DNA of 64,000 nt, from contig CALVJL010000003.1 in NCBI GenBank assembly GCA_944332075.1, forward strand, positions 62,001-126,000, read 5' to 3'. The stretch comes from an uncultured Bacilli bacterium. GTDB lineage: Bacteria; Bacillota_I; Bacilli_A; RFN20; CAG-449. Positions 7,978-28,897 of this stretch are shown here, piece after piece. The notes below the pieces were generated by a model. That model had not been told where the DNA came from. It searched no databases and saw nothing but the letters and a program-made list of their open reading frames with translations. Both the position numbers and the translations under genes were made by a program. How positions within the stretch are numbered: position 1 is the first letter of the stretch; the number at the start of each line of letters is the position of its first letter.

Positions 7978-9082
7978 AAATGAATTTATTAAATTATATT
8001 GCCCTGGCTGTGGAGCACTTCTTCAAAATGATGATCCTTTAAAAAGCGGCTTTGTACCTAAAAAATTAGAAGCAAAAAGCAATTTTCTCTGTCAGAGATG
8101 CTTCCGTTTACAGCATTACGGAGAGGCTTATGAAGATATTCATTATTCTAATGACTATCAGACAATTATTTCTAAAGCCAAACAAAGCGATGCATTGATT
8201 GTTTACGTTGTCGACCTTTTCGCATTTGACTGCTCAATTATTAATTCTTTAATTACAGCAATTAAGGATGCGAGAGTAGCAGTAATCTGTTCTAAGAGAG
8301 ACGTAATTCCATCTTCTGTAAAAGATGAAAAACTAATTAATTTCGTTCGTTATAGGTTAGAAGAAGTTGATATAAAACCTTTAGCAATAATGGTTTCTTC
8401 AGCGGTGAACAATTATAATCTCGACGAGATTCTTGAGACTTGTGAAGAGTTGAGAAACGGGCATGATGTCTATCTTTTTGGTGCTGTTAGCGTCGGTAAA
8501 TCTTCTTTAGTTAACGCTTTTTTAAAGATGTACGATAATAAAACGACGGAGATGATAACTACATCACCATATCCGGGCACAACTCTTAATGTCATTAGAG
8601 TACCAATTGATGAAAAATCATATGTCTATGATACTCCAGGTATTATGACTGAATCTTCTATTTTTGCACATGTTGATAGGAAACTTTTGAAATATGTTTT
8701 ACCGCGTAAAGAAATTAAACCACGCGTCTTCCAATTGTTAGGTAATCAATCGTTAATCGTTAATAATTTAGCGAAGATTGACGTTTATGATAAAGCCAAC
8801 TTAATCATCTTTATGTCTAACGATTTAGAAATCAGAAGAGCAAAACTCGAAAGATCGGATACGACATTTAATAATTTAATAAAAAATAAACAATTTAAAC
8901 TTCTTGATAGAAATGTCTTGTCAGCTGATGACTTACAAGAGCATAATCTTGACGTACCGCATCAAGACTGCGATATTGTTATTTCTGGGCTTTTATGGAT
9001 TAAAATCAAAGGTTCAGGTCAAAAAATCTGCGTTCGAACCTTAAAAGGAGTAGACGTAGTGATAAGGGAATGCAAAATATAA
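7967..9082 (+). CDS. yqeH: Ribosome biogenesis GTPase YqeH
   Basis: Circularly permuted GTPase needed for 30S subunit assembly. The N-terminal zinc finger has two Cys pairs: YCPGCGALL and LCQRCFRLQ (about residues 12-46). GTPase motifs come in permuted order: G4-like CSKRDVIP first, G5-like SSAVN, then G1 GAVSVGKSSLVNAF (about 168-181), G2 region with TTSPYPGTT, and G3 DTPGI. A C-terminal RNA-binding region follows. At 371 residues it is normal. It overlaps yqeG by 11 nt and is followed 1 nt later by yhbY. The aroE gene found between yqeH and yhbY in Bacillus is absent. Confidence 0.95.
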   Translation: MENKNEFIKLYCPGCGALLQNDDPLKSGFVPKKLEAKSNFLCQRCFRLQHYGEAYEDIHYSNDYQTIISKAKQSDALIVYVVDLFAFDCSIINSLITAIKDARVAVICSKRDVIPSSVKDEKLINFVRYRLEEVDIKPLAIMVSSAVNNYNLDEILETCEELRNGHDVYLFGAVSVGKSSLVNAFLKMYDNKTTEMITTSPYPGTTLNVIRVPIDEKSYVYDTPGIMTESSIFAHVDRKLLKYVLPRKEIKPRVFQLLGNQSLIVNNLAKIDVYDKANLIIFMSNDLEIRRAKLERSDTTFNNLIKNKQFKLLDRNVLSADDLQEHNLDVPHQDCDIVISGLLWIKIKGSGQKICVRTLKGVDVVIRECKI

Positions 9083-9083
9083 T

Positions 9084-9374
9084 ATGTTAACAAAAAATCA
9101 AATTCGTTATTTACGTTCGCTCGCGAACACTTGTGAAAATAAGTATCAAATCGGGAAATTTGAAATAAGCGATACAGTTATTGATTTATTAGATAAGGCG
9201 CTTCTTAAGCACGAATTAATTAAAGTTGTCGTCAACCAATCCGTTTCTGATAACAAGAGTGACTATGCTTATTTATTAAGTGAAGCTCTCCATTGTGAGC
9301 TCATTCAAATAATTGGTAACGTAATCGTTCTTTACCGTAAAAATTTAAAAGAGCCAAAAATTATCTTACCGTAA
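9084..9374 (+). CDS. yhbY: YhbY-family RNA-binding protein (CRM domain)
   Basis: 96-residue protein made of a single CRM RNA-binding domain, associated with pre-50S particles. It opens with LTKNQIRYLRSLANTCENKYQIGK, the typical YhbY N-terminus, and ends with IIGNVIVLYRKN, the conserved final strand. The GxxG loop is poorly preserved. It is packed between yqeH and nadD in the ribosome-biogenesis/NAD cluster. Confidence 0.9.
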   Translation: MLTKNQIRYLRSLANTCENKYQIGKFEISDTVIDLLDKALLKHELIKVVVNQSVSDNKSDYAYLLSEALHCELIQIIGNVIVLYRKNLKEPKIILP

Positions 9375-9375
9375 C

Positions 9376-10473
9376 ATGAAGAGATTACTTTATTTCGGAG
9401 GATCGTTTGATCCTATACACAATGCACATTTAAAACTAGCATCTCTGGCTAAAGACGCTTTAAATTGCCAGAAATGCTTTTTTGTGTTAGCGAAAAATCC
9501 GCGTTGGAAAGATCCAACATGCTCAGTAGAAGACCGTTTAAAAATGCTTCGCTTAGCAATTAAAGGACATCCTGGCTTTGCTATTTCTTTAATTGAATAC
9601 AATTCTGATAAGGATACGACCTATACCTATGACACGGTAAAAACGATTCTTAGGTATCACAAAAACGACCAACTATTCTATTTAATTGGTTCTGATCAGC
9701 TTGAGAAACTCGATAAGTGGTATAAAATCGATGAACTGTCAAAGATGATTAAATTTGTGGTTTTTAGGCGGAGTAATTATCCTCTTAACGAAGAGAATTT
9801 GAAGCGATATGATGTAACGTTACTTAACGCTGAAGAGATGGATATTTCTTCGACAAAAATTCGCTTATTAAATAATCTAGACTGTCCTAAACCAGTACTC
9901 GATTATATTGCAAAATATCAACTCTATTATACTTCACTTCTTAAAAATTATATTTCCAGTAAGCGATTAAATCATTGCTTTTCTGTAGCATCGTTGGCTT
10001 ACGATATTGCTTTAGCTAATCATAAAGATCCTTATAAGGCTTATCATGCTGGATTAATTCATGATATTGCTAAAGGTTTAAATAAAGAAAAAAGTTTAGA
10101 GCTCATGCAAAAATATTTTCCAAGTGAAATCGGAAAAGTTGGAGAATGGGGATATCATCAATTCTTAGCAGTTGTTATCGCCAAAGATATATTAAAAATA
10201 ACTGATGAAGAAGTATTAGAGGCAATAGAATATCACGCGACAGGAAAAAAACATATGTCGCCTTTAGCAAAAATTATCTATTGCGCGGATAAGATAGACC
10301 CGACAAGAGGATATGATTCAAGCGAATTAATAAAAAAATGTAAAGAAGATTATAAAGAAGGATTCAAGGCTGTTTTAAAAGCTAATATTGCCTATTTTAA
10401 GGAAAAGGGAATTGATTACTTAAACGACTACAGTAAGGAGTGCTTTGAATATTATTTAGGAGAAACTGACTAA
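9376..10473 (+). CDS. nadD: NadD-YqeK fusion: nicotinate-nucleotide adenylyltransferase with HD-domain hydrolase
   Basis: Two enzymes encoded separately in Bacillus are fused in this 365-residue protein. Residues 1-190 are NadD, which makes nicotinic acid adenine dinucleotide from NaMN and ATP: GGSFDPIHNAHLK (8-20) is the nucleotidyltransferase HxGH-type motif, with IGSDQL (104-109) and SSTKIR (158-163). Residues 193-365 are a YqeK-type HD domain: RLNHCFSVA (His200), HAGLIHDIAKG (His229-Asp230), YHATG, and YCADKIDPTR. YqeK proteins are diadenosine tetraphosphate hydrolases. No stop or frame change separates the halves. The ATG follows the yhbY stop by 1 nt; the stop overlaps the rsfS start by one base. 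Confidence 0.95.
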   Translation: MKRLLYFGGSFDPIHNAHLKLASLAKDALNCQKCFFVLAKNPRWKDPTCSVEDRLKMLRLAIKGHPGFAISLIEYNSDKDTTYTYDTVKTILRYHKNDQLFYLIGSDQLEKLDKWYKIDELSKMIKFVVFRRSNYPLNEENLKRYDVTLLNAEEMDISSTKIRLLNNLDCPKPVLDYIAKYQLYYTSLLKNYISSKRLNHCFSVASLAYDIALANHKDPYKAYHAGLIHDIAKGLNKEKSLELMQKYFPSEIGKVGEWGYHQFLAVVIAKDILKITDEEVLEAIEYHATGKKHMSPLAKIIYCADKIDPTRGYDSSELIKKCKEDYKEGFKAVLKANIAYFKEKGIDYLNDYSKECFEYYLGETD

Positions 10474-10811
10474 TGGAAGAATTAACATTAAATTTAATCA
10501 AAAAAGTTGTTGAAGATAAAAAATGTGAAGATATCGCTGTTTATGATGTGAGAACATCTTCACCAATTTGCTCATATATTGTTATTGCAACAGTAAATAA
10601 TGCGCGTCAAGGAAAAGCTGTTGCTGATCAAATCGAAGAGGAAGTCGAAAAATTAGGCGGCCATATTCACCACGTTGAGGGCGATGAACGTACTCCATGG
10701 ATTTTAATCGATGAAGGAGATATTATCATTCACCTCTTCACAGAGCAAGAAAGACAAAGAATTAATCTCGACGAACTCATCACTCAGGTCAATAATCATG
10801 CAAGAATATAA
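10473..10811 (+). CDS. rsfS: Ribosomal silencing factor RsfS
   Basis: 112-residue RsfS/Iojap protein that binds uL14 and prevents 30S-50S joining during starvation. Motifs visible are the DIAVYDVR segment, SYIVIATVNNARQGKAVADQI and the signature GGHIHHVEGDERTPWILIDEGDIIIHLFTEQER. Its start codon overlaps the NadD-YqeK stop (TAATG), so it is translationally coupled. The 3' end overlaps the nucleosidase start by 14 nt. Confidence 0.95.
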   Translation: MEELTLNLIKKVVEDKKCEDIAVYDVRTSSPICSYIVIATVNNARQGKAVADQIEEEVEKLGGHIHHVEGDERTPWILIDEGDIIIHLFTEQERQRINLDELITQVNNHARI

Positions 10812-11484
10812 TTTAATCATTATTGCGATGAAAGAAGAAGAAGAGGCGTTTATTAAGGCTTTTCCATTTGAAGTTAAAAATTTTAGCGATAATTTAAAAA
10901 CCTTCTCATACAAGCATGAAAATTTTCTAATTATGCGCGGTGAAGTCGGAAAAGGATCTACATGCTTTCATCTAGGCTATTTAGATGCAAGATATAAAAT
11001 TAAAAGAATATTTAATATCGGAACATCTGGTGGCATTTTTAGTAAGTTAAATATTGGTGATATTGTTATTGCTGATAAAGTTTGCTATATCGATGTCGAT
11101 GCTCGCGAATTCGGCTATGAATGTGGTCAAGTTCCAGGATTTCCATTATATTTTGAAGCAGATCAAAAATATATTGAAAGTAAATTAAATATTTTAAAAG
11201 AGTCAAACTTTTCATTTAAAATTTGGAATGGATTAATTGCATCTAGCGATACTTTCATGACAAGAGATAAGATTTCAAAATTTCCGATTTTAGAAATCAA
11301 GCCTTTCTGCGTTGAAATGGAAGCAGCTGCAGTAGGCCAGTCAGCATACTTAATGAAAGTGCCTTTCGTTATTATTAGATCAATTAGCGATATTATAACA
11401 AGACCAGAAAACGCTGATGATTCTGTCAAAAATATTGAGATTTGTTCGAAAAATTGTGCTGAAACATTATTAGCATTAATTTAG
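10798..11484 (+). CDS. mtnN: 5'-methylthioadenosine/S-adenosylhomocysteine nucleosidase
   Basis: Cleaves adenine from methylthioadenosine and S-adenosylhomocysteine, recycling the by-products of SAM use. The phosphorylase-fold motifs are present: IIIAMKEEEEAF at the N-terminus, NIGTSGGI, GDIVIADKVCYIDVDA, SSDTFM, VEMEAAAVGQ (substrate-binding Glu pair) and RSISD with the catalytic Asp. I chose ATG 10798 (MQEYNLI), giving 228 residues, the family norm; an earlier ATG would add 29 unrelated residues read from inside rsfS. It takes the place that the methyltransferase gene yqeM has in Bacillus. Its TAG stop is part of the first TAGTAT element of the repeat array downstream. Confidence 0.93.
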   Translation: MQEYNLIIIAMKEEEEAFIKAFPFEVKNFSDNLKTFSYKHENFLIMRGEVGKGSTCFHLGYLDARYKIKRIFNIGTSGGIFSKLNIGDIVIADKVCYIDVDAREFGYECGQVPGFPLYFEADQKYIESKLNILKESNFSFKIWNGLIASSDTFMTRDKISKFPILEIKPFCVEMEAAAVGQSAYLMKVPFVIIRSISDIITRPENADDSVKNIEICSKNCAETLLALI

Positions 11485-11566
11485 TATAATTTTTGTATAA
11501 ATATAGTTATAGTATTTAATTAGTATTTATTTAGTATAAAGTAATATATTAGTAGAAAATTAGTTG
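11482..11566 (+). repeat. Left TAGTAT array, 11-bp phased (terminus region)
   Basis: TAGTAT or near copies begin at 11482, 11510, 11521, 11532, 11550 (TAGTAG) and 11561 (TAGTTG). From 11510 the spacings are 11, 11, 18 and 11 bp, close to one helical turn. The array is the left half of an imperfect inverted repeat whose right half lies at 11742-11828, with the dif-like site between. All copies here point rightward. Confidence 0.6.
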
Positions 11567-11592
11567 ATTATTTCTATTATTATTTTCAATAG

Positions 11593-11623
11593 AAGAGAGT
11601 GGTTAATTTATCTCTCTTTTTAT
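11593..11623 (+). terminator. Rho-independent terminator of the yqeG-mtnN operon
   Basis: AAGAGAG (11593-11599) pairs with CTCTCTT (11612-11618) across a 12-nt loop, followed by TTTTT on the + strand. Confidence 0.7.
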
Positions 11624-11659
11624 TTGAACAATTGCACGTCTTGTTTTATATTATTATCA

Positions 11660-11687
11660 ACTTCGCATAATTGATATTATGTAAATA
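11660..11687. other. dif: Candidate dif site (XerC/XerD recombination site)
   Basis: A 28-bp sequence with the architecture of a chromosome-dimer resolution site. The XerC-type arm is ACTTCGCATAA (11660-11670), the central region TTGATA (11671-11676) and the XerD-type arm TTATGTAAATA (11677-11687). By eye against remembered reference sites, the Bacillus subtilis dif matches at 21 of 28 positions. The left arm shares CGCATAA with the E. coli dif and the right arm shares TTATGT with both. It lies exactly where gene orientation switches from rightward to leftward, 1.4 kb from xerD, in a gene-free region. The combination makes a functional dif likely; the recombination itself is not shown. Confidence 0.85.
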
Positions 11688-11741
11688 TTAGATTAATTTT
11701 ATAATTTATAATAAAAAGTAATTAGTATTATCAGTATTAAA

Positions 11742-11828
11742 TAACTTGAAATCTACTAATTACTTACTTTATACTGTTATATTACTATTGTATTACTATT
11801 CAACTAATAATCTACTAACTATTCACTA
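11742..11828 (-). repeat. Right TACTA array, mirror image of the left array
   Basis: Inverse copies of the TAGTA element begin at 11742 (TAACTT), 11753 (CTACTA), 11771 (ATACTG), 11782 and 11793 (both TTACTA), then 11801, 11812 and 11823. Spacings 11, 18, 11, 11 repeat, in mirror order, those of the left array. The longest exact match is TTACTTTATACT (11764-11775) against its complement at 11533-11544. An ungapped alignment of about 60 bp gives roughly 41 matches. No gene is encoded. Confidence 0.6.
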
Positions 11829-11840
11829 ATATATTAATTA

Positions 11841-11856
11841 TGCCATAATTATGGCA
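11841..11856. promoter_or_regulatory. 16-bp perfect palindrome beside the deoB stop
   Basis: TGCCATAATTATGGCA is a perfect palindrome 4 bp from the deoB stop codon. No T run follows on the minus strand, so it is a poor intrinsic terminator. It may bind a protein or merely protect the 3' end of the mRNA. Confidence 0.4.
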
Positions 11857-11860
11857 AATA

Positions 11861-13051
11861 TTAATCTTTTAGTAATTCATCGATAGTTGATCCGATTTGA
11901 AAATCTTTTTTCTCTAATTTAAAGTTTTCGATAATGGTTCTTCCCATATCGGCAAAAGAATTTCTGTCATCAATTCTTCTTCCGTTTTTAAATGATTTGC
12001 TATAAGCAATAAAAGGAACCTTTTCGCGGGTGTGATCTGATCCTGGCATTGTTGGATCATTACCATGATCGGCAGTAACGATTAATAAGTCATCATCCTT
12101 TAATAGTTTAATTAAATCACCTAAATCTTTATCAAATTCTTCGATGCATTTTCCGTATCCAAATGGGTTTCTTCTATGTCCATATTCTGAATCAAATTCA
12201 ACTAAATTGACAAAGCATAATCCTTTGAAATCTTCTTTAGCGATTTCTTGAGTGATTTCCATACCGTTATGATTTGATACTGTTTTAAAAGTCTTTGTCA
12301 CTCCAACACCATTAAATATATCATTAATCTTACCGACACAGATGACATCATAGCCATGGTCTTTCATCGTTTCCATATAAGTGTAAGAGGACGGGGATAA
12401 AGCATAATCGTGACGACGCGGCGTTCTAGTAAAGTTATCCTTATTTGTTCCAATAAACGGTCTAGCAATAACTCTTCCAACTTTATATTCCTCTTTCATA
12501 CAAAGCTCTCTTGCGACTTCGCATAAATGATAAAGCTCTGGTACAGAGACAACGGCTTCGTTTGCTGCGAGCTGGAGGACTGAATCAGCTGATGTATAAA
12601 GAATAATTTCTCCGGTCTTTAAAGTTCTTTCACCAAGCTGCTTAATAATTTCGGTTCCCGAGGCAGCAATATTACCAATATACTTTTTACCTGTTTTCTC
12701 TTCTAATTCATCAATTAATTCTTGAGGGAATCCTGTATCAGTGAAAGTCTTGAAAGGTTTTGTAGTTAAGACACCCATCATTTCCCAATGTCCAGTCATG
12801 GTATCTTTACCATTGCTCTCTTCATTCAATGCGCAGACATAGGAATTGACGTGTGAAACCTTTTTGGTTCCAATAATATCAGCATTAATATCATGTAGAC
12901 CTAACATATTCAAAGTTGGGATATTTAAGCCATTGCAACGCTCTGATACGTGAACGAAGGTATTTGCACCTTCATCATGGAATTTATCTGCGTCAGCCAT
13001 CGCACCGACACCTAATGAATCCATAACGATCAAAAATACTCTTTTAAACAT
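11861..13051 (-). CDS. deoB: Phosphopentomutase
   Basis: Interconverts ribose-1-phosphate and ribose-5-phosphate (and the deoxy forms), linking nucleoside breakdown to central metabolism. It is an alkaline-phosphatase-fold, Mn-dependent enzyme of the usual size (396 residues). Visible are [16 protein letters not shown] at the N-terminus (metal Asp), the phosphorylatable threonine region [13 protein letters not shown], and the metal ligands in [24 protein letters not shown] and [15 protein letters not shown] precedes the ATG by 5 nt. It is the last gene of the leftward asp23-deoB group and follows xerD by 12 bp; the xerD-deoB pair is conserved in Bacillus. Confidence 0.97.
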
Positions 13052-13063
13052 AATTCCTCCTAT

Positions 13064-13939
13064 TTATTTCATCATTTTATCATATTCACTAAGCAAATGT
13101 TTTGTTTCGACGTGAGTATAGATTTCTGTTGTTTTAATATCGGCATGCCCAAGCAAAGCTTTAACTGTTGATAATGAGCATCCATTTTCTAAAAGATGCG
13201 AAGCAAAGCAATGTCTAATAGTATGCGGCGATACCTTATTTATTATACCGATTCTTTCAAATGATTTCTTAATAATTAGATAAAATTCTTGTCGAGAAAT
13301 CATCTTTCCACGGTCGGATATAAATATTTGCTTTTCTTTTTGATATTTTGAATTACTTCTAACTTCATCAAGATATTTAATCAGATAGTTTTTAGCGACT
13401 TCGTCAATTGGAATAACTCTTTCTTTCGCACCTTTGCCTTTTACTTTTAATTGGCTCTTTTCCAAAGAAACCTCATTGAGTGTCAAAGATAAAAGCTCGC
13501 TAACGCGTAATCCGCAGGCATACATCAATTCAATCATCGCTTTATTTCGAATGTCTTTATTTGTCTCTAACGGTAAGGAATCAAGCATTTGCCGCATTTT
13601 CTCTTTGGAAATAACATAAGGAAGATATTTTCCTTTCTTATGGCTTTCTAATGAAGAAAAATCAAAGGCTAACTCAGCATGTAAAGAAAGGTAAACTAAG
13701 AAATTCTTTATTGATGAAAGCTTTCTAACAATCGATGAGGCTTCTAAATCTTCGGAATGGAGCTTTTCCAAGAAGTTATTTACTTTTTCGGGTAATAAGT
13801 CATCTTTCGTACTTTTATCGCCTAGAAAAGCCAAAAACTGCTTTAAATCGTTTTTATATGATTCAATAGTTGATTTAGATAGTCCTTTCTCGACAACAAG
13901 AGAAATTAAATACTCATCGAGATATTCTTTAAGAAGCAT
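13064..13939 (-). CDS. xerD: Tyrosine recombinase XerD
   Basis: Chromosomal site-specific recombinase that resolves chromosome dimers at dif. Residues 1-100 are the SAM-like core-binding domain (SKSTIESYKNDLKQFLAFLG); the rest is the catalytic domain. All catalytic residues are in place: Arg145 (CGLRVSELL), Lys169 (VKGKGAKER), His239 and Arg242 (SPHTIRHCFA), His265 (LLGHADIKT) and nucleophile Tyr274 (EIYTHV). At 291 residues it is typical. AAAGGAG lies just before the ATG, which overlaps the end of dinB. It is called XerD rather than a phage integrase because of its length and the conserved deoB neighbour. The candidate dif lies 1.4 kb away. No xerC is in this window. Confidence 0.9.
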   Translation of the reverse strand: MLLKEYLDEYLISLVVEKGLSKSTIESYKNDLKQFLAFLGDKSTKDDLLPEKVNNFLEKLHSEDLEASSIVRKLSSIKNFLVYLSLHAELAFDFSSLESHKKGKYLPYVISKEKMRQMLDSLPLETNKDIRNKAMIELMYACGLRVSELLSLTLNEVSLEKSQLKVKGKGAKERVIPIDEVAKNYLIKYLDEVRSNSKYQKEKQIFISDRGKMISRQEFYLIIKKSFERIGIINKVSPHTIRHCFASHLLENGCSLSTVKALLGHADIKTTEIYTHVETKHLLSEYDKMMK

Positions 13940-23472: not shown

Positions 23473-26400
23473 CTATTCACCATGATACACGAATGGATCC
23501 ATATGCGAAACATTTTCTTGAGGTTTTCTTGTAACAACTAAGGTTCTATCAACAACAGTCGAGATATCGAGAACTTTCTCTGGTGGTGCTGAAATAATAA
23601 CCTGCAAGTCGAAATCTTTTAAAATCTTAATCGATTCAACGATTCTGTTACGGTCCATCTTTGAGAAGGCTTCATCGAATATGACTAATCTGATGCAGTT
23701 AGAAATATTCTTGTTGGCTTTTACGCGGTAAAGCTGCGAGAAGGAAGCTAAGATAGAAATATAGAATGGTGTTTGTGTTTCACCTCCGGAAGCCTTTTTA
23801 ATATTTCTCGCTAAGGAATAGACGGCTCCGTCTGGTTTCTTAACTTTCAAGTCGAAGATTAAATATGAGCGATAATCTGTGAATTTTTCAATATTTTGAG
23901 CGACTTGTTCAGCTTTATCTTTACCTTCTCCATCCGAGATTAAACGGAATAAGTTATCCATAACATCTTTATGTTTGAGTAAGAAAGCCTCGTCATCACT
24001 ATCAACATCAAGCAACATCTCATCGGTAATCATATTGTAATAATCAATATATTGTGGATTTGGTTGAATTGTGAATTCATAAGAGTCTTGGCCGAAATGG
24101 GCATCTTTTAAAGCTTCATTAAGTTCACCAATTTGTAAACGTGCCTGTTCAATAGCGGTTTTTAACTTAAAGATGAAATCATCCTTAAATTCTTTAGTAG
24201 CCTTTTGATGAGCATCTTCGATTTTGACTAAATATTGCGGAAGTTTAACATCGCGCAAAGTTGTTAATTCTCTTTCAAAATCATCATTATCTTCTTTAGT
24301 AATATCATAAGATAACTTATAGGTAATAACGTAAGAAGAACGGCGATCTTTCAATTGTTCATTAAGGTTTCTAATTCTGTTTTGAACTTTTGAGTAGATA
24401 TCATCATATTTCAAACGGATATCAGCTAACGATAGATTGCTAGCGAGTTCGCTATCAAAGGTTGGTTTGGCTGTTTGCTCGACCCATTCCTTATCAAATG
24501 AATTTTCAATTTCTTCCATATAAGCTGAAGACTTCTTCACTTCTTGTGGAATTTTTTCTTCTTTTGTGACTTTAATATTGTTCTGTAAAGCACCTTTTTC
24601 GAGGATTAATTCATTTTTCTGGTTGTTGAGTTGTTCAATATCCGTATCAATTCTCTTAATTTTTGTATCAGTAGTTTGAAGGTCTTGGCTTGTACCAGCT
24701 TTTAATTCTTCTTCGTACTGCTTAAGATTATTCTTCAATGAAGTAAGTAAATCGCTGCTATCGAGTTGATTAAGGCAAATCATCTGCTCTGATTGCGACA
24801 TAATATCGAGTTCTTTAGCCTCAGATAAAGTATCTACTAATTCTTTTAAAGCACCGATTGATTTAGCTTCTAAGTCGAGTTCCTTCATTCTTTGATCGCG
24901 GACTTCACGCGAAACAGATCTTCCTATCAATGGATAGCGATAAAGGCGATCTGGAATAACAAATGAAGCAAATGAACGATAACCAATGCAGGAAGGACAA
25001 ATACCATGTCCGGATTCTCTAGCTTCTTGGAAGGTTTCGCACTTCGTTAGTCTACCAATCAAGAAATTAGTATAGTCGCGCGCACCTTTATGATCAGTGA
25101 TGATTTCTTCAGCCAAAGAATTTTCTTCAGCTTCAAAATTATGTTGAGCTAATGCTCTTTCATCGACTAATCCTGTCCGGTGATAGCCGTTTCTCTTCAT
25201 AATGCCTGGCAATAATTTATTAGCGACTTCATAATATTTATCCTTAACGAATAAATTAAGCTTTTGAGCGGAAATAAAACCTTCGATTGCATTAATCCAG
25301 CGTTTATTGCGAATATCGACTAAATCAGCATAAATTAAGACATCAACTTTTTCATGGAAGTGATCTTCAAGAGCCAATTTTAATTGATTTCTAACATTGA
25401 GAAAGGCGTCATCATAATATTTGCCGCTGCTTGAAGTAACAAGTGTTTGCTTTTGCTGACTAATTCTATTGATAACCATGCCAATAGAAGATTTTAAAAC
25501 GCTATATTCTTCAATAACGACATTTTTAAAATCGCTTATTGACGATGAGAAGTTTTTGAATAATTCTGGTGTCAAAGAACCTGAATTTAAAGCTTCTTTT
25601 GTTGTCATTAACGCTTTATCAAGATTAGCGCATTCCAGTTCGAGATGTTTTAATGAATCTAATACTTTGTTATCGTCAGTATGCTCAGCAGAGCTCAAGC
25701 ATAGTGAATTAATCTTATTTTCATAATTGAGGAAATTATTAACATATGTGTTAATACGCGTATATAATGCCTGGAGATTTTCTTCAATCTCATGAACTTT
25801 TCTTTCAGCATCCTGATAAGATTTTCGTAAATCTTGAGTTAATTTATAGTTATCGTTAGAAAATTTATAGGCGATTAAGGTTTGTTTTTGTTCTTCAAGA
25901 GATTCAATATCGCTTTCGATTTCTCTAATTGAAGAATCAATTTCCGCGATTCTTTCCTCAGCGCGACTAATATCATTATGATAAGAAGCGATATAATCAG
26001 AAGAAATCTGTAAGAAAATTCTCTTTGAAATATATGATGCTAAAGACATTTCCTTACGCTTATCAACTATTTGCTGATAAATATTATGAATCTCCTCAAG
26101 AGATCTAATTTTAACCATCATCTCATCAGCTTCAATTTTTAAGCGTTCATATGAGGTAATATTTGATTTCATTGATTCGATGTTAATGTCATTAGGAACA
26201 TCGCAAACATATTCGGTGATAAAAGATTCAATATTGGTGATAGGAATAAATGAGACCGCCTTTTTAAAGAGCGAGAAATACTTTTCCTTAAGATTACCAA
26301 ATTTTTCTTTAATAACTTCTTGGTATTGCGCGTTTGAATCGCAGAAAATAAATTTATCGCTATCATAATTTGCAGCAAAGTACTCTTGTAAAGTCTTTTG

Positions 26401-26841
26401 CGACATCGGAACGCGATCAATTAAGAAATGGTTTTCTGGGAATTTATCTTCAAGGTAGAAAAAACGATGCTGTTCAGATCCATCATCGAAAACATCAAAA
26501 ACGACACCGACAGTGAATGGTTGATTCAAGACATCATCAAAAAATTCAAGAGCGATATAGGAAGTAAAACGGCCCGTTCTTAAGAATTTTGTCGATCCAT
26601 CTTCATTATCACCAACTTCACAGCGCAAATATCCTTTTAAAGTACGACCAGATTTTTCATTAGCTGCTTTGTTAAAAGACCGACCATACGTATCGCCGAG
26701 CAAAACAACTTGCATAGCATCGATAACAGTCGACTTACCAGCTGCATTAACACCGGTTAAAAAGTTTAACATGCCGAATTCAACTTCAATATTTTGAAAA
26801 TAGTGCCAGTTGATCAGACGCAATTTAGTTAATTTTTTCAT
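23473..26841 (-). CDS. jetC: JetC/MksB-like SMC ATPase of a Wadjet-type condensin
   Basis: Large SMC-like protein (1122 residues), the motor of a JetABC/MksBEF complex that extrudes DNA loops. The N-terminal head carries FLTGVNAAGKSTVIDAM (Walker A Lys36), the C-terminal head KKASGGETQTPFY (ABC signature, 1018-1021) and RLVIFDEAFSKMD (Walker B, Asp1056-Glu1057). Between them are two long coiled-coil stretches. A hinge-like middle region holds Cys601, His612, Cys615 and Cys618 (HGICPSC), a possible zinc site. It overlaps jetB by 4 nt. In known Wadjet systems the complex senses closed circular DNA and JetD cuts it. JetD is absent here, so a chromosome-organising role is equally possible. Confidence 0.88.
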   Translation of the reverse strand: MKKLTKLRLINWHYFQNIEVEFGMLNFLTGVNAAGKSTVIDAMQVVLLGDTYGRSFNKAANEKSGRTLKGYLRCEVGDNEDGSTKFLRTGRFTSYIALEFFDDVLNQPFTVGVVFDVFDDGSEQHRFFYLEDKFPENHFLIDRVPMSQKTLQEYFAANYDSDKFIFCDSNAQYQEVIKEKFGNLKEKYFSLFKKAVSFIPITNIESFITEYVCDVPNDINIESMKSNITSYERLKIEADEMMVKIRSLEEIHNIYQQIVDKRKEMSLASYISKRIFLQISSDYIASYHNDISRAEERIAEIDSSIREIESDIESLEEQKQTLIAYKFSNDNYKLTQDLRKSYQDAERKVHEIEENLQALYTRINTYVNNFLNYENKINSLCLSSAEHTDDNKVLDSLKHLELECANLDKALMTTKEALNSGSLTPELFKNFSSSISDFKNVVIEEYSVLKSSIGMVINRISQQKQTLVTSSSGKYYDDAFLNVRNQLKLALEDHFHEKVDVLIYADLVDIRNKRWINAIEGFISAQKLNLFVKDKYYEVANKLLPGIMKRNGYHRTGLVDERALAQHNFEAEENSLAEEIITDHKGARDYTNFLIGRLTKCETFQEARESGHGICPSCIGYRSFASFVIPDRLYRYPLIGRSVSREVRDQRMKELDLEAKSIGALKELVDTLSEAKELDIMSQSEQMICLNQLDSSDLLTSLKNNLKQYEEELKAGTSQDLQTTDTKIKRIDTDIEQLNNQKNELILEKGALQNNIKVTKEEKIPQEVKKSSAYMEEIENSFDKEWVEQTAKPTFDSELASNLSLADIRLKYDDIYSKVQNRIRNLNEQLKDRRSSYVITYKLSYDITKEDNDDFERELTTLRDVKLPQYLVKIEDAHQKATKEFKDDFIFKLKTAIEQARLQIGELNEALKDAHFGQDSYEFTIQPNPQYIDYYNMITDEMLLDVDSDDEAFLLKHKDVMDNLFRLISDGEGKDKAEQVAQNIEKFTDYRSYLIFDLKVKKPDGAVYSLARNIKKASGGETQTPFYISILASFSQLYRVKANKNISNCIRLVIFDEAFSKMDRNRIVESIKILKDFDLQVIISAPPEKVLDISTVVDRTLVVTRKPQENVSHMDPFVYHGE

Positions 26842-27464
26842 TCTGCATCCTCCATAATTTCTTCATCCGGAAGCGATTCAACTTGTTTGTAAAGGCTTTG
26901 AATAACTTCATAATCAACCACAAATGCAATTGAAGGATTAATATAGAAAGTTAAATTTTTCTCATAAAAATCCCCGCTTATTCTCGTAATAATATTATGT
27001 TGCTCTAAAAAGCGATATGACGATTCAAGTGATGAATAAGATACTCTCTTATCTTGACGAATTAAATGCATATTTATCAAACACTGCATCAACTCATGGC
27101 TAGTAAAGCGGACAACTTGATTAAGCGCATCATCATTATTTTGAGTTTCGTAAACATACCTCAAAGCAAAAATAACTAAAGAAGTTTTTAAATCTAATTT
27201 CAAATGATTTTCTTCATATTCATTTTTAATCGAAATTACCCCGCGCGATGAGTCTTTATTTACAATCCAACCTGATAAAGAAAGATAATTTGAAACTAAA
27301 TCGAGGTGGCGTTCAATAAAGGAATATTCTTTGCTCGCCCGCATCATTTTAGCATTGCGGTCATAGTAATCTCTAAGAATGAAACTTTTCAACATCAAAG
27401 TATTGACCACATGGGCGAATTCTTCTTTTTCAACATTTCGCAATTGTTCGTATTCTTCTAGCAT
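26838..27464 (-). CDS. jetB: JetB/MksE-like subunit (DUF4194)
   Basis: 208-residue winged-helix kleisin partner of the KITE/MksE type. Typical JetB features are the N-terminal FAHVVNTLMLKSFILRDYYDRN, the middle ALRYVYETQNND and RFTSHELMQCLINMHLIRQDKRVSYSSLESSYRFLEQHNIITRI, and the acidic tail. I chose ATG 27464 (MLEEYEQL) because AGGAGA sits 8 nt upstream; the TTG two codons earlier overlaps the jetA stop. It overlaps jetC by 4 nt and follows jetA by 2 nt, so the three subunits are tightly coupled. Confidence 0.85.
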   Translation of the reverse strand: MLEEYEQLRNVEKEEFAHVVNTLMLKSFILRDYYDRNAKMMRASKEYSFIERHLDLVSNYLSLSGWIVNKDSSRGVISIKNEYEENHLKLDLKTSLVIFALRYVYETQNNDDALNQVVRFTSHELMQCLINMHLIRQDKRVSYSSLESSYRFLEQHNIITRISGDFYEKNLTFYINPSIAFVVDYEVIQSLYKQVESLPDEEIMEDAE

Positions 27465-27466
27465 CG

Positions 27467-28897
27467 TCAATTCTCCTTCTTAGTATAGATATAATCTGGT
27501 GCGTTAACTTTATCATTGACATCGATGTTGACGTTTAATTCATCTTGACGATCCATATCGTAGAAACTAATCGGCGCTGTCGCTTTGATTGCTCCAAGCA
27601 TCAAATAGAGGAAATCATCAACATTATCAACTTTAAAATCGTGAACGTGTATTTGTTTTTTATCTTGGAAATTTTCTGCCATAAATTCCATGACTCTCTC
27701 ATCGGAATAACGCGCTGTCTCAGCCATTGCCATCGTCATTTGCGAATCATCGAAGATATGATCATCATCAGGTAAAGGCAGAGGATCAGAGAAAAACTTT
27801 TGATTTCTTTCATATGGTTTTCTAAGCGACCCTTCATCGTAATAACCTTGTGTGTAGAGTTTTATCGATGAACCAAATGCCCGAATAATATTTGGATAAG
27901 AAGAATTTTTATCCTGCTCATTTTTGGAAAGATTTCTAGCTAACACGGTAAATATCTTTTCAAGTTTACCCTTAACTGATTTATCGTGATTATTAAGGAA
28001 GATGACTTTATCAGCTGAAGCCTTAACATATTCTGACTGCGAGACATCAATATTATTAATTTCAGTAGAAAGTCGAAGATAAATATCTTGAATCCTAGTA
28101 ATCTTTTTTACTACGTCATCAGTAGCCTCTAATCGCGACTTGACCGACTTATTTTCTTTAAGGCATTGATCAATTAATTTTTCGCGGACTGTGTCAACTT
28201 CTAACCAGCGTTTTAAAATTGAAGAAATCGGTCCGTGGTAAAGCGTGATTGAATCATGTGTTTTTAATGGATGGTATATTGGGTCGACAACATCTTCACG
28301 GCAGATATCAAAATGCTGTTTAAGAACTTCGTTAGGCTCAAACATATCGCTGAGCTGCCGTTTATAAACTTTAATTGAATGATCGAGTTTAGCTACCTCA
28401 ATTGCTAAAGATTCTGTATTATTGTAAGCATTTTCTAGGGTTTTATACATCGATTCATCTTGATTATCGTCTTCGTATTTTAAATCGGCATATGTTGTAT
28501 GAACATAGCTAACATAATGATTTGCAGTAGTGTCGGCAAATTCATAAATCAGTTTTAACATATTAACCGAATATGAAGGTAGCAAGATATATTCAGTTCC
28601 GGTTTTCGTATCGTAATCGATATAAATCCAACCTGTTTCTATCAAGCGTTTAACAATCTGATTAGCTTTTGCACCAATTGAGGACTCGCTTTCAACACCA
28701 TCTTCTTCATCGACATAAGAATTTAAATCATCGCCGGAACGACTTTTTAATAATTCAACATAATCATTTTTTCTTATGCGCGCACGATAAAGATTTAATG
28801 CATCGTAAAGCACGATTAAAGCATCGCCATAAACGCCCTTGTTACGCGATGCTAAAATTGAAAAGAAATTATCCGGTAATTTTGCAAATAAATTCAT
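27467..28897 (-). CDS. jetA: JetA/MksF-like kleisin of a Wadjet-type condensin
   Basis: 476-residue kleisin-type subunit. The beginning LFAKLPDNFFSILASRNKGVYGDALIVLYDAL is the recognisable JetA N-terminus. A central helical region and a C-terminal segment (YLMLGAIKATAPISFYDM) follow. It ends with TGA, evidence for the standard code. The ribosome-binding site GGTGAT is close to the ATG. It is the first gene of jetA-jetB-jetC, the type II Wadjet order. The flanks (plsC upstream, leuS downstream) are housekeeping genes, not a defence island. Confidence 0.86.
   Translation of the reverse strand: MNLFAKLPDNFFSILASRNKGVYGDALIVLYDALNLYRARIRKNDYVELLKSRSGDDLNSYVDEEDGVESESSIGAKANQIVKRLIETGWIYIDYDTKTGTEYILLPSYSVNMLKLIYEFADTTANHYVSYVHTTYADLKYEDDNQDESMYKTLENAYNNTESLAIEVAKLDHSIKVYKRQLSDMFEPNEVLKQHFDICREDVVDPIYHPLKTHDSITLYHGPISSILKRWLEVDTVREKLIDQCLKENKSVKSRLEATDDVVKKITRIQDIYLRLSTEINNIDVSQSEYVKASADKVIFLNNHDKSVKGKLEKIFTVLARNLSKNEQDKNSSYPNIIRAFGSSIKLYTQGYYDEGSLRKPYERNQKFFSDPLPLPDDDHIFDDSQMTMAMAETARYSDERVMEFMAENFQDKKQIHVHDFKVDNVDDFLYLMLGAIKATAPISFYDMDRQDELNVNIDVNDKVNAPDYIYTKKEN

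Follow-up and report, generated by a model that had tools for sequence, protein, structure and literature searches.

Accessory DNA beside Xer sites is known from plasmids, and chromosomal dif is not known to require anything beyond XerCD and an FtsK-type translocase. We also know of no MatP outside Gammaproteobacteria. At the plasmid sites cer and psi, accessory proteins act on adjacent sequences (PMC5357621). The dif region described here resembles cer (ColE1; ArgR, PepA) and psi (pSC101; ArcA, PepA) in combining a Xer core with one-sided DNA, predicted in this case to bind protein, within ~200 bp. It differs from both in having a chromosomal dif as its core, no ARG box, a DnaA-box-like site and additional arrays across the terminus, and it differs from psi in that three array-bearing genomes lack OmpR-type proteins, the class to which ArcA belongs. 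The RTP/Ter system of Bacillus subtilis and the Tus/Ter system of Escherichia coli share with the present arrays the arrangement of asymmetric sites, mostly in gaps, over the terminus around dif. However, Ter of B. subtilis is a 32-bp pair of imperfect inverted repeats (PMC13220808), whereas the arrays consist of 11-bp direct repeats of mixed polarity in genomes in which RTP was not found above cut-off. The matS sites of the MatP macrodomain are likewise a family concentrated around dif, but matS is a 13-bp palindrome, in contrast to direct-repeat arrays in a different phylum, one copy of which is in register with dif. Among the open-access papers searched, none describes such a dif-side element in its title or abstract. 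Judged from sequence comparison, a dif-side array and a DnaA-box-like element locked to the same helix face point to an undescribed terminus protein complex in one order of gut Bacilli.

The window, the whole stretch of 64,000 nucleotides that was analysed (genome G000, contig C3), contains the replication terminus of a gut Bacilli metagenome-assembled genome. The 28-bp sequence ACTTCGCATAATTGATATTATGTAAATA at 11660–11687 (+ strand), read as XerC arm ACTTCGCATAA, centre TTGATA and XerD arm TTATGTAAATA, is an XerCD/dif site, having both arms, a switch of GC skew from positive to negative at the same place (~11.5–12 kb of the window) and a xerD gene, which encodes an XerD-like tyrosine recombinase of 291 aa (13064–13939, − strand; PF00589 and PF02899), the genome having three tyrosine recombinases in total. 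The site sits between convergent genes, a phosphorylase-superfamily gene of the MTA/SAH nucleosidase-like kind (10711–11484, + strand; PF01048), whose 3′ end lies on the XerC side, and a phosphopentomutase-like gene (11861–13051, − strand; PF01676), whose 3′ end lies on the XerD side. The same 28-bp dif was found in 68 of 84 of the first loci and in 36 of 41 relatives. Immediately beyond the phosphopentomutase gene, at 11841–11856, stands a perfect palindrome, TGCCATAATTATGGCA; CATAATTATG is reminiscent of the dif arms, and a sequence similar to the palindrome recurs at G000:C13:15956. Wadjet (Jet) genes lie ~12–17 kb from dif at 23473–28897 on the − strand, with JetA (PF18982) at 27467–28897 and a large SbcC-like ATPase at 23473–26841.

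Two arrays flank this dif, both reading toward it. The XerC-side TTAGTA array (11482–11565, + strand) has TAGTA cores at 11483, 11510, 11521, 11532 and 11550 and TAGTT at 11561, and the XerD-side array (11743–11829, − strand) has, in + strand letters, AACTT at 11743, TACTA at 11754, TACTG at 11772, TACTA at 11783 and 11794, ACTAA at 11803, TACTA at 11814 and CACTA at 11825. The initial annotation, which had described mirror-image arrays around a dif-like site, was right about the left series, the presence of a good dif between both series and the mirrored steps (11, 11, 18, 11 on the left; 11, 18, 11, 11 on the right), though the right-hand cores begin one base higher than it had listed, and the arrays run past its listing, to 11483 on the left and to 11803, 11814 and 11825 on the right. 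The mirror it called exact is exact in spacing and not in the elements themselves, 3 of 10 being degenerate (two right, one left). Its longest inverted match is genuine, as AGTATAAAGTAA at 11533–11544 (+ strand) and its copy at 11764–11775 (− strand) are exact reverse complements; this is a local feature at genus level, with AGTATAAAGTAG as its counterpart in locus L005. In inverted register, the arms of the window are 68% identical over 56 bp. The number of element pairs 11 bp apart in 11485–11860 was reached by 0 of 3000 dinucleotide-preserving shuffles, in a test run both with exact TAGTA and with TTAGTA allowing one mismatch. Strict symmetry about the terminus, as proposed, is not supported, because the mirror axis (11654.0) and the centre of dif (11673.5) are 19.5 bp apart and the form found across the order is one-sided. 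Close arrays on the XerC side occurred in 8 of 97 flanks, all of family f1 and only in the genus of the window and one sister genus (g1 and g4), too few independent cases for a helical-phase estimate. Since the mirrored form is thus confined, the mirror is, as read from these sequences, a local elaboration, and the conserved entity is the one-sided element.

Relatives were collected with phosphopentomutase as bait, which gave 80 loci, and with the dif pattern among 41 relatives, which gave 30 further loci. Of 96 dif flanks, 73 had TAGTA repeated two to six times at exact 11-bp steps on the XerD-arm side, reading toward dif. Most often the array takes the form TTAGTAG-N4-TTAGTAG in 2–6 copies, ~100–145 bp from dif. 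TAGTA reached a density of 7.8/kb on the XerD side compared with 0.87/kb elsewhere, and 73 TAGTA pairs exactly 11 bp apart were counted there. Of the 24 genomes from the order of the window, 19 had a strict composite (two TAGTA 11 bp apart, then 104–134 bp, then the dif core), the genus of the window itself matching through its XerC-side array; among 174 other Bacilli there was 1 match, which resembles chance, and the reversed control gave 1 of 198. Families f2, f3 and f8 of this order carry dif but lack the array; for f2 this rests on loci L057 and L062, which have dif sites similar to those of f2. The initial annotation had held that relatives keeping dif and lacking the elements would speak against it; the elements persist beside dif, and the proposal survived this comparison, which is a stronger test of the array than shuffles. 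Different genomes have different genes next to the array (phosphopentomutase, ABC permease, substrate-binding lipoprotein, PemK-like or cNMP-binding regulator), and the distance from array to dif nevertheless keeps its steps. As the neighbouring gene varies and the intervening sequence is mostly unalike, it is dif, not a gene, that the register follows. In locus L016, a PemK/MazF-like gene (8984–9523, + strand; PF02452) stands directly before the array, and in several other genomes PemK-like-looking open reading frames do so, a cNMP-binding regulator or ABC permease taking this place elsewhere.

Between array and dif, most relatives carry WTGTGGAWAAC (consensus of 64 flanks, array strand), usually ~94 bp from dif. 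By its sequence this is a match to the DnaA box 9-mer TTWTCCACA, and the oriC boxes of the same organisms have the same sequence as the dif-side box. In the first set, GTGGAWA reached 3.2/kb against a background of 0.054/kb, a 58-fold enrichment. The box was absent from 13 of 58 non-redundant array flanks, and no DnaA-box-like site was found near dif in the window or its genus, which is why the initial annotation missed it.

Distances among array, box and dif cluster at steps of one helical turn (10.5 bp). After removal of similar flanks, which left 80, this three-part phasing gave R=0.68 for array to dif (n=58), R=0.58 for box to dif (n=50) and R=0.72 for array to box (n=45), values reached by 0 of 50,000 jittered sets, although the corresponding p values are too small because the genomes are related and their independence is overstated. 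Typical positions from dif are −109, −120 and −130/−131 for the array and −93/−94, or about one turn either way, for the box, and the array-to-box distance is mainly 25–27 or 37–38 bp, one turn apart. The same phasing is seen in families f1, f4 and f5. The suggestion in the initial annotation that helical phasing reflects a protein on one DNA face gains from this, since a phased array is tied to dif and kept beside it in relatives. We take the shared register as the strongest sign of contact among the proteins predicted on array, box and dif. In architecture, and with binding as a prediction, the array accords with cer and psi, being DNA that lies beside a Xer core in helical phase with it.

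We weigh most heavily, though tentatively and with a rough probability of 45%, the reading that array, box and XerD arm are parts of a single nucleoprotein assembly, which would dock on, or loop to, XerCD–dif and aid dimer resolution or terminus handling. The families that have dif alone, the flanks without a box and the arrays remote from dif speak against this reading. A dedicated sequence-specific protein would bind the array cooperatively on one DNA face, one helical turn per unit, and DnaA, or a protein of the same specificity, would occupy the box. The assembly on array and box would contact XerCD at dif and control dimer resolution or terminus handling, so that the array would serve as accessory sequences for a chromosomal Xer site, as at plasmid cer and psi. 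The same protein may bind further arrays within ~50 kb to either side of dif, and in this way mark the terminus region or fold it. The SMC/XerD unloading platform and the FtsK docking zone put forward in the initial annotation are possible versions of this assembly. It is also possible, but somewhat doubtful, that the arrays represent a new kind of terminus element, in which a dedicated protein other than RTP, Tus, MatP or Rok would read an 11-bp direct-repeat code and, tied to dif through DnaA and phasing, would couple the replication initiator to dimer resolution at the far end of the chromosome.

Further arrays are gathered around the terminus. In the 13 genomes whose dif lies on a long contig, 87 arrays were counted; 56 of them lay within 50 kb of dif, where 7 were expected (8% of the DNA), and the other 31 lay more than 50 kb away or on other contigs. 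The same junctions recur across genomes, namely after plsY, after lepA, between glyS and dnaG, between aspS and tkt, and before dxs or dinB; the genome of the window also has the lepA-site array (G000:C3:21395), 52 kb from dif. A DnaA-box-like site accompanied 4 of 83 outlying arrays, all at plsY, and was absent from 79. As the outlying arrays mostly lack a box and lack dif, the putative array protein must also act without XerCD. The plsY array lies directly 3′ of the plsY stop codon, on the XerC side, 8–10 kb from dif, and points away from it (G044, G045, G046, G051, G055, G056, G057 and others); in four genomes it is followed by the DnaA-box-like site. The plsY array and the dif array bracket a segment that carries parE and parC (topoisomerase IV) in the gene order of the window.

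This distribution would also be expected if the arrays marked the terminus domain as matS-like binding sites for a nucleoid protein whose role is to fold or insulate ~100 kb of DNA around dif or to unload SMC or Jet complexes there, the dif copy being simply the central one and having no role in Xer recombination. The excess within 50 kb of dif and the recurrence of the same gene junctions in different genomes favour such a marker, and XerD at dif is described as unloading SMC in B. subtilis (Karaboja 2021, as cited in PMC12322038). We nevertheless consider it rather unlikely, because by itself it leaves unexplained why array and dif are in rotational register and why the dif copy has a box, and because matS is palindromic whereas the array is a direct repeat. 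The replication fork trap named in the initial annotation, with polar Ter-like sites facing inward, fares worse and appears improbable. In its favour, direct repeats have a polarity, nearly all genomes have the dif-adjacent array pointing toward dif, and all 7 arrays of G003 and 8 of the 9 of G005 point that way. However, when the dif copies are set aside, 39 of the 57 outlying arrays point toward dif and 18 away, which is no more polar than gene orientation (84–93% of coding bases co-oriented), an array pointing away is conserved 8–10 kb from dif in at least eight genomes, and no RTP (PF02334) scored above cut-off among 31 genomes, with the B. subtilis control scoring positive.

Direct repeats of 11 bp resemble OmpR/PhoB-type boxes, and a number of arrays extend into the stretch ahead of a start codon (dxs, dinB), as would be expected of transcription-factor operators gathered by chance near the terminus. 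This explanation is nonetheless quite improbable, as G028, G035 and G060 carry the array without any OmpR-type domain, arrays also lie between convergent genes or opposite to both neighbours, and the dif copy has no gene to serve, its distance being set by dif. An element of DnaA alone, either a BUS-like site with TAG trios or a DnaA-titration site, is more improbable still. TAGTAG can be read as two DnaA-trios (3′-GAT-5′ consensus, PMC8287927) followed by a DnaA-box-like site, and BUS likewise combines TAG-containing repeats with a DnaA box. In BUS, however, at least three contiguous DnaA-trios lie 0–16 bp from the DnaA box (PMC8287927), whereas here the units are spaced 11 bp apart, the box mostly starts 25–38 bp after the start of the last TAGTA across a long stepped spacer, and the element lies at the terminus instead of at oriC, an arrangement outside the definition of BUS. 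Furthermore, no TAGTA arrays were found at oriC in nine dnaA loci, and hardly any outlying array has the box. Neutral or selfish short repeats spreading in intergenic gaps would fit the wide variation in copy number (6–8 near-identical units in G051) and the location of arrays mostly in gaps, but they would not be expected to keep a register to dif, conserved junctions and a restriction to the terminus over many genera, and this reading, the least probable of all, is already disfavoured.

Returning to the docking assembly, profile searches for RTP, OmpR-type proteins and Rok found no array-binding protein. Two sub-threshold PF02334 matches that were read from the DNA look Asp23-like. The OmpR-type domain searched for was PF00486 (Trans_reg_C), and its absence from three array-bearing genomes led us to reject these regulators. 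In B. subtilis, Rok favours TACTA/AACTA, is found together with DnaA and serves as an anchor of loops (PMC6212790, PMC11841835), and the first two of these properties made it an attractive candidate. Unlike in B. subtilis, whose control scored positive, the Rok winged helix (PF23159) did not exceed the cut-off in any of 18 genomes of the order, and genome-wide avoidance or depletion of TAGTA was not found. Arm sites of a Tn916-type integrase were rejected, as no extra long integrase is common to the array-bearing genomes, G028 and G035 having recombinases of only 272–316 aa. An autoregulated binder gene 3′ of the outlying arrays was likewise rejected, the downstream genes being dxs, dinB, recN and others with no single regulator, and so was an RNA element, given that no Rfam match was obtained and arrays also run opposite to both neighbouring genes. 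Among small proteins common to three terminus regions, no candidate new DNA-binding protein stood out.

If the proposed assembly exists, chromosomal dif can own an accessory complex, consisting of a phase-locked array and a DnaA-type box, across many genera, and a genome-wide terminus mark would be present in a lineage without RTP and, as far as known, without MatP. The array would then give a direct way to fish out its protein, and by connecting DnaA with dif the assembly would be relevant to how cells couple the close of one cycle to the start of the next. Two further observations concern the form and place of arrays. On many contigs of genome G051 (locus L031), arrays have grown to 5–8 near-identical 11-bp units, CTAGTAGGTTT or CTAGTACATTT. 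In the genome of the window, a two-copy TTAGTA array lies at G000:C4:97132, between serS-like and nrdD-like genes and 9 kb from dnaA (C4:106004).
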